A stretch of 64,000 bases of DNA from Flavobacterium sp. W4I14 (GTDB taxonomy: Bacteria; Bacteroidota; Bacteroidia; Sphingobacteriales; Sphingobacteriaceae), in contig JAUSZU010000001.1 of assembly GCA_030817875.1 (NCBI GenBank), forward strand, positions 1,860,001-1,924,000. Reading direction: 5' to 3'. Under the pieces are notes generated by a model. It was given only the letters and a program-made list of their open reading frames with translations. It was not told where the DNA came from and made no database searches. Below are positions 29,182-54,640 of the stretch, in pieces. The position numbers were made by a program, and so were the translations under genes. The number at the start of each line of letters is the position of its first letter. Position 1 is the stretch's first letter.

Positions 29182-29220
29182 ATGGATAATCAACGCAATC
29201 ACATGGACAATACTATCTAG
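29182..29220. promoter_or_regulatory. AraC-type operator: two ATGGAYAAT repeats 21 bp apart (symporter)
   Basis: ATGGATAAT starts at 29182 and ATGGACAAT at 29203, exactly two helical turns apart. The same arrangement is found at 44961/44982 and 54603/54624. Confidence 0.75.
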
Positions 29221-29321
29221 TTAAATAATCGCAATCTTCGGGCTCAAAAATAAAAAATAGTTCCTTCGAAGTGGACCTGATTTCCATGACCGCATAACTC
29301 CGCTGCTTGAACCGATTCCAA

Positions 29322-29355
29322 TAAAAAAAGCCGCAGAACCAGGCAGGTCTGCGGC
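29322..29355 (-). terminator. Terminator of the susC1-GH36 operon
   Basis: On the minus strand the stem GCCGCAGA/TCTGCGGC with a 10-base loop is followed by a T-run. It lies 53 bp after the GH36 stop and separates unit 1 from unit 2. Confidence 0.85.
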
Positions 29356-29407
29356 GATAAGCGTAAATACAACCTATTGTATAAGGGCTGAGCGTATTTT
29401 TTGTTAT

Positions 29408-51490: not shown

Positions 51491-54400
51491 TTAAAGTCCA
51501 ATATTAACACCAAAAACAAACATTTTTGAAGTTGGATAACCATCACCTCCTTCAGGATCATAACCTTTATATTTGGTTACGGTTAACAGGTTCCTACCGG
51601 TAACATACACACGTAGATTGCTTAATTTCGCCTTTCTCATAAAGTCCTGTGTAAAATTATAGGCCAGCGTTAAGGCCGACATCCTCAAATAAGATGAATT
51701 CTGTACAGCATAGTCGGTTTCTCCAACACTATAACGGCCACTTCCGGTATAAGCTCTGGGAATGTTGGATTCAGTGTTGGCCGGTGTCCAGCGGTTAAGT
51801 TCATCTTGATGGCCCGAATATTCACCTGTACCGTTCAATAAGCCTTCATAAAGTCCGCTGATGGCTTTGCCGCCATAGCTATAATTGAAAACCGCGTTCA
51901 GTGTAAGATTTTTATAGGTTACATCGGTAAAGAAACCTCCGTAAAATTTGGGATCTTTTTTCCCTACAACAATACGGTCGGCATCATCTATCTTTTTATC
52001 GCCATTTACATCAACCGGAACAATATCCCCCGGACGAATGGTGCGGCCTCCATAATCAATACCCTGGATACGTGCCATATCGGATTGTTGCGCAATTTTT
52101 TCGAACTTATAGGTATAAATAGCATTAAGCGGTTGGTTGAGGAAGAAGTTACCTTCTCTTTGGATCTCCACTCCGGTAAATCCGCCATAATTATAAATGG
52201 CATCTACATTACCATAAAGCTTGGTAATTTTACTTTTATAGGCAGAAATATTGGCACCCATATTCCATTTTAAATCATCGCCATTTAGTATGACGCCGTT
52301 AATATTAAAATCAAATCCCTGATTAAGCAATGAGCCTACATTGGCAATGGTATTATTGAATCCCGATGTGGTTGATAGCGTTCTTCGCATCAACAGGTCG
52401 TTGTTGTGGATCAGAAAATAATCGGCATTAAAAGTTAACCTGTTATCCAGAATGGCAATGTCCAGTCCCAGGTTAAGTTGTTTTTGCTTTTCCCAAACAA
52501 GATCATAATTTCCCAAACGACCATCTGACACATAGGTAACAGATCCGTTGGTAAATACCGGACGGTAAAGGGAACGGTAGGCAAAATCATCGATTTTCTG
52601 GTTTCCGGCTATGCCGTAACCCGCACGGATTTTAAGCATGTTGATTCCCTTGATGTCCCTGAAAAAATCTTCGTTTGCAACATTCCATGCTAGTGAAAGT
52701 GACGGAAAAAGTCCCCATTTGTTGTCATTGCCAAATTTTGAGGAACCATCGTACCTTCCGGTAAGGGTTGCAAAATATTTATTGTCGTAACTGTAATTGA
52801 ACCTCGCCACGTAGCTGATCAGTGAGTTGGTTACAAAATCAGAAGATAACTGGAATTGATCTTTCAGGTAAGCCCCGCCGAGGTATTTGTAAGAAAAATC
52901 GTCAGTAGCAAAACCTGAGGCATTTACCTGGTTATAATTGTAGTTGTTCTGGCTTAATCCAAAACTCAGGATACCCGAAAAGCTATTTTTGCCAATGGTT
53001 TTATCATATGAAATCGAATTATCCCACTGCCAGTTTACCCAACTTTCTTTTTTCTGTGTGGCACTGCCGTTGGTCGAGTTTCTAAGCGACTGGCCTAAAC
53101 TTTTGGGAATGTAGTTGTAATAATTTTGATTCCTTACATCAAGGGCAATACTCGAGCGTACATTTAATCCCGGGATGAGGGTTGCCACAACATAGTTATT
53201 GGTTAATAAACGGTTTAAATTACCTTTCCCATCAATATTTAAACTTCTGATAGGATTGTATAGATCGGTACTTTGAATACCCTTCCAGCTTAAGTAGGTA
53301 ATCTGATCATTGATGGGTAAAAGTGGATTCGCATTGGCAGCGATACCGAACACACCTCCATCGATATAGGATTCCTCGGTACGCGAGAAATTGGTATTGG
53401 TACCGATTTTTAACCAGGGTTTTATTTTCTGATCGAGATTAATTTGTCCGCCATAACGTTTATAGTTGGAGGTTTTAAGTAGCCCCATTTGATCAGTGTA
53501 ATTAAAACTCACATATACTGCACCGTCAGGACCACCTTTAGAAAATGTTGCCGTATGGTTCTGCTGTATAGCCGTGCGGGTAATTTCATCGAGCCAGTTG
53601 TATGATTGTCCGCTACGGTACACATTCAGTTCATCCTGACTGAATGCTATAGAATTTGTACCCAACAATGAATTGATATAGGTCTGACGGTCTGCAGTCG
53701 GATTATCGTCCATATATTTGTTGGCATAAGCGTCGATACGTAAATCGGCAATCTGCTGGCCATTTAGGTATGGAATGTTTTTGTTGAACGACTGTACTCC
53801 ATACCACCCATTGTATTCTATTTTCCCATCGCCATTCTTGGCCCTTTTAGTGGTGATAAGTACCACACCGTTCGCACCTCTTGAACCATATATTGCAGTT
53901 GCAGATGCATCCTTTAAAATGTCGATACTTGAAATATCATCTGGGTTGATGGTATTAAAGGCTTCTTCGATCACCAAACCATCTACAACATAAATCGGGT
54001 TTGAACCATATTGTATGGAGTTGTTTCCGCGCACCTTAATGGATACAGCACCACCAGGCCTGGGATCATTACTTTGCACTAGCACACCGGCAACACGCCC
54101 CTGAATGGCCTGATTGATATTAGTTACGGGCATTTCTTTAATTACCTTTTCACCAACACTGCTTACCGAACCTGTCAGATCGCCCTTTTTAATGGTTGCG
54201 CCCACTACGGTAACTTCCTGAAGTTCGCTTGTTGTAGCAATCAAAACGATATTCATGCCCGCAGCCGCCGGTCGCTCAGTACTACCATAACCAAGGGAAG
54301 AAAAAATAAGGATAGCACCTGTTGGGACTTTGAAACTGAACTTGCCGTCCGGATCAGTAGAGGTTGCTGTCGTAGTTCCTTTTACTTTGATAGAAACACC

Positions 54401-54547
54401 TGGGATGGACATTCCATCATCTTTACCCGTAACTTTCCCTGATGCTATTACCTGCTCCTGGGCCAAAAGCTGGCTACCTTGTATTAACGCCAAAAACATC
54501 AGTAAAGACGCCATTTTGGGCAAGGATTTTACAATATAAATTAACAT
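51491..54547 (-). CDS. SusC/RagA TonB-dependent outer-membrane transporter (SusC2)
   Basis: A 1018-residue transporter. Signal peptide (MASLLMFLALIQGSQLLAQ; ATG at 54514 is an alternative start), carboxypeptidase-like domain (ASGKVTGKDDGMSIPGVSIKVKGTTTATSTDPDGKF), plug with NPIYVVDGLVIEEAF and SSIDILKDASATAIYGSRGANGVVLITTKR, and a barrel ending in MFVFGVNIGL. No STN domain. It is related to SusC1 only at family level, so the second system is probably not a recent duplicate. Unit 3 starts here; the operator is 56 bp upstream. Confidence 0.95.
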   Translation of the reverse strand: MLIYIVKSLPKMASLLMFLALIQGSQLLAQEQVIASGKVTGKDDGMSIPGVSIKVKGTTTATSTDPDGKFSFKVPTGAILIFSSLGYGSTERPAAAGMNIVLIATTSELQEVTVVGATIKKGDLTGSVSSVGEKVIKEMPVTNINQAIQGRVAGVLVQSNDPRPGGAVSIKVRGNNSIQYGSNPIYVVDGLVIEEAFNTINPDDISSIDILKDASATAIYGSRGANGVVLITTKRAKNGDGKIEYNGWYGVQSFNKNIPYLNGQQIADLRIDAYANKYMDDNPTADRQTYINSLLGTNSIAFSQDELNVYRSGQSYNWLDEITRTAIQQNHTATFSKGGPDGAVYVSFNYTDQMGLLKTSNYKRYGGQINLDQKIKPWLKIGTNTNFSRTEESYIDGGVFGIAANANPLLPINDQITYLSWKGIQSTDLYNPIRSLNIDGKGNLNRLLTNNYVVATLIPGLNVRSSIALDVRNQNYYNYIPKSLGQSLRNSTNGSATQKKESWVNWQWDNSISYDKTIGKNSFSGILSFGLSQNNYNYNQVNASGFATDDFSYKYLGGAYLKDQFQLSSDFVTNSLISYVARFNYSYDNKYFATLTGRYDGSSKFGNDNKWGLFPSLSLAWNVANEDFFRDIKGINMLKIRAGYGIAGNQKIDDFAYRSLYRPVFTNGSVTYVSDGRLGNYDLVWEKQKQLNLGLDIAILDNRLTFNADYFLIHNNDLLMRRTLSTTSGFNNTIANVGSLLNQGFDFNINGVILNGDDLKWNMGANISAYKSKITKLYGNVDAIYNYGGFTGVEIQREGNFFLNQPLNAIYTYKFEKIAQQSDMARIQGIDYGGRTIRPGDIVPVDVNGDKKIDDADRIVVGKKDPKFYGGFFTDVTYKNLTLNAVFNYSYGGKAISGLYEGLLNGTGEYSGHQDELNRWTPANTESNIPRAYTGSGRYSVGETDYAVQNSSYLRMSALTLAYNFTQDFMRKAKLSNLRVYVTGRNLLTVTKYKGYDPEGGDGYPTSKMFVFGVNIGL

Positions 54548-54572
54548 AAAAAAGATATTTGATTAGTGTGGT

Positions 54573-54640
54573 TAAATTTACAATGAAAATAAAACAGGGT
54601 AAATGGATAATCATCACCAAAACATGGACAATATGATCAC
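54573..54640 (-). promoter_or_regulatory. susC2 promoter and AraC-type operator
   Basis: Repeats ATGGATAAT (54603) and ATGGACAAT (54624) are 21 bp apart. On the minus strand TTTA (54603-54600), 19 bp and TAAATTTA (54580-54573) are placed exactly as at susC1, with weak -33 and -7 boxes as expected of an activator-dependent promoter. Confidence 0.6.

Follow-up and report, generated by a model that had tools for sequence, protein, structure and literature searches.

Organization of the locus

The window, i.e. the whole 64,000-nucleotide stretch of DNA that was analysed, contains a sugar locus in which three units on the minus strand flank or adjoin a plus-strand gene for an AraC-family regulator, designated 45160 after its first position. 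The relevant genes are as follows.

20512 to 21423, plus strand: second protein with an AraC-type helix-turn-helix (HTH_18, HTH_AraC), outside the sugar locus and adjoining a short-chain dehydrogenase
24358 to 29085, minus strand: unit 1, MFS sugar porter (27736-29085) and DUF5107/TPR protein (24358-27678), by Pfam and NCBIfam
29408 to 44769, minus strand: unit 2, susC1, susD1, two SusE/F-like DUF5000 proteins, GH95, aldose 1-epimerase, GH97, GH36
45160 to 46059, plus strand: AraC-family regulator of 299 aa, AraC_binding sensor domain and two-HTH DNA-binding domain (Pfam PF02311, PF12833, PF00165)
46286 to 54547, minus strand: unit 3, susC2, susD2, lipoprotein-like xylose-isomerase-fold protein, sugar dehydrogenase/cytochrome c/PKD protein

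In the initial annotation, the first gene of unit 1 was called a symporter; it is indeed a sugar transport gene preceded by an operator, but family profiles identify its product as an MFS sugar porter. The annotation also placed a single AraC regulator, 45160, in the locus; this is correct for the sugar locus, and the window has in addition the protein at 20512-21423, beside whose gene no TCCAT pair is found. The GH97 of unit 2 is nearest in sequence to retaining α-galactosidases (432 and 430 bits, versus 170 for the best α-glucosidase), and the GH36 is also nearest to α-galactosidases; thus, an α-galactose-bearing glycan is a reasonable candidate for the substrate. Searches of the literature for a Pedobacter AraC/SusC motif, and likewise for DUF5107, gave nothing useful.

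The C-terminal domain of the 45160 protein matches PF12833 (72.8 bits) and PF00165 (73.6 bits, in two stretches), consistent with two HTH motifs, while its N-terminal ligand-binding domain matches PF02311 (E 2.6e-12, residues 47-130). Its score against NF007860, the equivalog model for E. coli-type AraC, is 90.6 bits, far below the cut-off of 208, which marks a protein of similar working but not the same one, and the HTCS architecture (periplasmic sensor, histidine kinase, receiver, and AraC-type domain) is absent from the 299-aa protein.

Three predicted tandem operators

Each of the three units is preceded by a pair of repeats that is predicted, from its sequence, to be an AraC-type operator.

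29181 to 29217, minus strand: MFS porter operator, predicted AraC-type, GATAGTATTGTCCAT-GTGATTGCGTTGA-TTATCCATT (middle segment, N13)
44960 to 44996, minus strand: susC1 operator, predicted AraC-type, in the araC/susC1 divergent region, GATCGTATAATCCAT-CATTTATTTGTAT-TTATCCATT (middle segment, N13)
54602 to 54638, minus strand: susC2 operator, predicted AraC-type, GATCATATTGTCCAT-GTTTTGGTGATGA-TTATCCATT (middle segment, N13)

The pairs had been reported at 29182/29203, 44961/44982, and 54603/54624 with a spacing of 21 bp, and all are found there. Since the downstream genes are encoded on the minus strand, that strand is the more natural one on which to read the sites, and on it the half-site cores are TTGTCCAT-N13-TTATCCAT at the porter (29182-29210), TAATCCAT-N13-TTATCCAT at susC1 (44961-44989), and TTGTCCAT-N13-TTATCCAT at susC2 (54603-54631), and the consensus of the three pairs is GATnRTATwRTCCAT-N13-TTATCCATT. 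The repeat had been written as ATGGAYAAT; the pairs are real, with RTCCAT as the invariant core of both half-sites, but the literal 9-mer is inexact at 44961 (ATGGATAAA) and 44982 (ATGGATTAT). In all three pairs the half-sites have the same orientation and a period of exactly 21 bp, or two helical turns, and so form a tandem direct repeat. The bases beyond the second repeat, which had also been described as alike, correspond to a conserved GATnRTA that precedes the distal TCCAT and occupies the place of the A-box in an AraC half-site. The B-box TCCAT is invariant, the A-box GAT is kept in the distal half, and the A-box of the proximal half is conserved weakly.

Two additional candidate elements at the porter were rejected. 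A third, degenerate half-site (GGCTATTTG) scores 7.8 bits, within the maxima of simulated sequence, and is unconserved in relatives; a perfect 8-bp inverted repeat (AAATAGCC-TTGATA-GGCTATTT, 29156-29181), which lies between the porter operator and the -33 and might have been a second operator, is unconserved in five relatives. A gene for a Crp-like protein with a weak cyclic-nucleotide-binding match (55308-55904, plus strand) adjoins the susC2 operator.

Specificity and conservation of the predicted operators

Three RTCCAT-21-RTCCAT pairs are present in the 64-kb window, versus 0.025 expected under a second-order Markov model, and the pattern TWRTCCAT-N13-TTATCCAT has exactly three zero-mismatch matches in the 6.446-Mb Pedobacter genome, all at this locus. 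The exact pair is therefore confined genome-wide to these three promoters and is not frequent elsewhere, in keeping with the earlier proposal that it marks the three glycan units. Since this pattern was drawn from the sites themselves, which makes the genome-wide search circular, a matrix (PWM) was built from 25 sites in other Pedobacter genomes and none from the window. It gives the three sites 46.3, 42.7, and 38.9 bits; the next score in the window is 7.8, and the maximum in 20 simulated windows is 11.4. In a search of the whole genome with a sequence model of 22 of the relatives' sites, the three sites rank first (E 1.3e-8, 5e-7, and 1.1e-6). The fourth match (E 0.0014) lies ~44 bp upstream of the gene for the next-closest AraC homologue (38% identity), and the remaining matches have E values of 0.046 or worse. 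Among the one-mismatch matches to the pattern elsewhere in the genome (L004-L007), just one recurs with the relatives-only model (E 0.11). Arrays of 7-bp tandem repeats (TAGTCCA and TTATCAA units) are present in the same genome near 1246196, 4043741, and 1074266; since 21 bp is three units, such arrays match a scan for the 21-bp period falsely.

Named relatives assign the genome to Pedobacter. Comparison was made with 145 Pedobacter genomes, of which 24 carry an orthologue of 45160 at an identity of at least 46%. An operator pair directed away from araC is found upstream of nearly all of these orthologues, including the set at 50% identity or above; three orthologues at ~50% identity (L041, L065, and L066) have no clear site. 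In 475 kb of sequence surrounding these orthologues and including a few adjacent regions from the genomes concerned, 28 RTCCAT pairs have a period of 21 bp, and no other period from 8 to 60 has more than three. Around more distant homologues, TCCAT pairs are over-represented at 32 bp as well; this was discarded as an artefact, since most of the copies are similar stretches of related loci and resemble coding sequence. Exact full sites are present in 12/145 genomes, all 12 of which are among the 24 carriers (Fisher p 2.4e-11, a value that ignores kinship); part of this co-occurrence is not independent, because araC and its adjoining sites are inherited together. Downstream of the relatives' sites are orthologues of the porter, susC1, and susC2 and, in other cases, genes for an epimerase, GH97, GH95, and GH2. 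An equivalent site lies upstream of the porter in five genomes (G046, G086, G143, G010, and G027), and in G046 (L117), where susC2 is on a different contig from araC, the site is still found 56 bp from the susC2 ORF. All 40 of the genomes that have the porter also have an AraC homologue. Extra operators upstream of further genes occur in two relatives (L118, 9593; G086:C211:10003), possibly reflecting additional regulon members that are absent from the host genome.

Promoter geometry and comparison with araBAD

The Bacteroidota promoter consensus consists of a -33 TTTG and a -7 TAnnTTTG (PMC7366714), and all three predicted promoters match this type by sequence.

29131 to 29161, minus strand: porter promoter, -33 TTTG (29158-29161), N19, -7 TAGTTTTG (29131-29138)
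44931 to 44961, minus strand: susC1 promoter, -33 TTTG (44958-44961) overlapping the proximal half-site, N19, -7 TAAGTTTA (44931-44938)
54573 to 54603, minus strand: susC2 promoter, -33 TTTA (54600-54603) overlapping the proximal half-site, N19, -7 TAAATTTA (54573-54580)

The TTTG-N19-TAnnTTT-type boxes of the initial annotation are thus present at the porter and susC1, and susC2 has TTTA as its -33. The placement given there for the porter repeat, 21 bp clear of the -33, also stands; at susC1 and susC2 the repeat overlaps the -33. At most sites the -7 box (usually TAAGTTTA) begins 26-27 bp past the proximal TCCAT, with a TTTG-like -33 overlapping the half-site, and the offset of the susC1 -7 box is the same in five close orthologous loci. 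The porter -7 box begins 48 bp past the proximal TCCAT, exactly 21 bp beyond the susC arrangement. This +48 offset recurs in two relatives (L100 and L098), and three more genomes (L099, L177, and L179) have the same porter-leader layout. Since the displacement is two turns, the same face of the DNA is kept. A AACCAAATA-like stretch recurs in the porter and susC leaders, either just before the start codon or after the -7 box, and is possibly an A-rich initiation leader.

The E. coli araBAD region (MG1655 record) resembles these sites in its 21-bp repeat period and its half-site, TTATCCATA. The core TTATCCAT is also present in araI1 (TAGCATTTTTATCCATA), and the core TTGTCCAT in the araO2 half-site (AATTGTCCATA). 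The E. coli -10 element, TACTGT, lies 26 bp after the araI2 B-box position, much as the -7 box here starts at 26-27 bp, and E. coli AraC and the 45160 protein share the HTH2 helix DQ-YFSR-FK. There are also differences: the A-box is TAGC in E. coli and TGAT here; TCCAT is present in both half-sites here, whereas araI2 lacks it; the promoter boxes are not the same; and a looping operator and a CRP site belong to the araBAD features that have no counterpart described at these operons. In E. coli, AraC bound at araI2 recruits polymerase (PMC4760080). The likeness of both operator and placement to araBAD therefore suggests activation.

Probable regulator and alternative explanations

Taken from sequence comparison, the three units are very probably under a real, ordinary AraC-type control circuit, and the preferred reading, to which we give a probability of about 0.86, is that the 45160 AraC-family sugar sensor, as a dimer on the direct repeats, activates all three. 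The comparative evidence thus favours the earlier suggestion of 45160 as the probable common activator, through the sites adjoining its orthologues, the 12/12 carriers, and the unlinked targets. Binding of the three operators by the 45160 protein has strong comparative support; that its effect would be activation is a good argument by analogy, from the -33 overlap and the geometry of E. coli araBAD.

An unlikely alternative is that another AraC-type domain binds at these sites, either an HTCS encoded elsewhere in the genome or the 20512-21423 protein, with 45160 as a bystander. HTCS operators in Bacteroides PULs do have this architecture, being direct repeats with a mean of 21 bp between tandem sites (PMC3878776), and the 20512-21423 protein does place another AraC-type HTH in the window. 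However, the motif is immediately upstream of 45160 orthologues in nearly all species, exact sites are restricted to genomes that carry such an orthologue, and the scanned proteins of this locus contain no HTCS domains. Moreover, the gene for the next-closest AraC homologue is accompanied by a related site of its own, suggesting that each regulator uses the site adjacent to it. Less probable again is that 45160 is a repressor whose unliganded dimer on the -33 blocks RNA polymerase until sugar releases it. The overlap of the proximal half-site with the -33 tetramer at susC1 and susC2 would fit such a block, but overlap of the upstream box is the activating position of E. coli araI2 as well, and a steric block is unlikely at the porter, where the site is 21 bp clear of the -33. 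In addition, CgrA, the AraC regulator of Zobellia, acts positively (PMC5698469).

Least credible, to the point of being negligible, is an origin of the pairs as chance repeats or as copies carried along with duplicated susC promoters. Chance is ruled out by the spacing counts, the Markov expectation (three pairs seen versus 0.025 expected per 64 kb), the relatives-only PWM, and the genome-wide model. Since susC1 and susC2 belong to one protein family, a common ancestry of their promoters is conceivable; yet the core and period are kept while the spacer and flanks differ among the three sites, the porter does not belong among the susC paralogues, and in the relatives the site also occurs at further genes that are not susC.

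Proposed circuit

Activation of the three units by 45160 would proceed as follows. A sugar released from the glycan would enter the cytoplasm via the MFS porter and bind the N-terminal AraC_binding domain; sensing of an imported sugar would be expected from what is known of the AraC family, and 45160 should work in this way because it has neither a kinase nor a periplasmic sensor. As a dimer, the regulator would then sit on the two half-sites from the same side of the helix. Because the proximal half-site overlaps the -33 of a Bacteroidota-type promoter at susC1 and susC2, the regulator would be able to contact RNA polymerase there and activate transcription. At the porter, its action would have to come from a position more distant from the promoter by one site-length (two turns). 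E. coli AraC tolerates no displacement and is strict in its positioning; thus, with an operator displaced by 21 bp, activation of the porter would need a different contact or a second factor. As a result, the two SusCD systems, the α-galactosidase-type enzymes, and the inducer's own importer, the porter, would be co-induced, and the porter may plausibly close a positive-feedback loop.

Elements of this circuit have precedents. HTCS operators also lie upstream of susC operons and are predicted to be bound by AraC-type domains (PMC3878776), although the regulator here is a one-component AraC that lacks the HTCS kinase and periplasmic sensor. Zobellia, also of the Bacteroidota, has a glycan locus with sugar transporters that is positively regulated by a one-component AraC-family protein, and an unlinked susCD pair is induced by the same glycan; that system differs in substrate and species, and the part consulted describes no operator (PMC5698469). 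Direct repeats averaging 21 bp (HTCS, PMC3878776) and a one-component AraC glycan regulator (PMC5698469) are thus already known. The more interesting point is the operator core and spacing shared with E. coli araBAD, together with a family-wide code.

A possible operator code in the wider AraC family

A related pair is often found beside the genes of more distant AraC homologues (35-43% identity), with TCCAT as the first copy, TCTAT, TTCAT, or TACAT as the second, and different A-box letters. In these proteins recognition helix 2 (D[QP]YYFSR) is nearly constant, and residue 230 is the most variable position of recognition helix 1. Our alignment pairs residue 230 with Arg40 of MarA, a residue of key importance at the A-box (PMC8279559). 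Among scorable sites, counted by eye, G is found at the A-box position for 18/22 regulators with Arg230 and for 0/21 without it. Thus, the A-box letter appears to track residue 230, a suggestive correlation in which the Arg230 group is largely one clade and so does not provide independent evidence. The next-closest AraC homologue in the same genome (L120, 6004500-6024400, ~38% identity) has a TCCAT-21-TACAT site of its own, is divergent to a PSCyt/PSD1/DUF1501/xylose-isomerase-fold cassette, and probably represents a parallel circuit. A general code for the AraC regulators of Pedobacter glycan loci, in which TCCAT, the 21-bp period, and the -10/-7 distance match araBAD and the A-box co-varies with residue 230, is a tentative proposal that we hold at somewhat below even odds.

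At the level of the locus, three adjacent units (two SusCD systems and an inner-membrane porter) become a single predicted regulon, for which the regulator is named and the operators are defined to the base. As a one-component protein, this regulator would need imported sugar, unlike the HTCS sensors that are prominent in the Bacteroides literature. The combination of a constant B-box and a variable A-box can serve in practice as a guide to the targets of related regulators in Pedobacter. If the match to araBAD reflects common descent, the targets of dozens of such regulators would be predictable, and AraC recognition and promoter geometry would have been kept between Proteobacteria and Bacteroidota despite their different primary promoter consensus.
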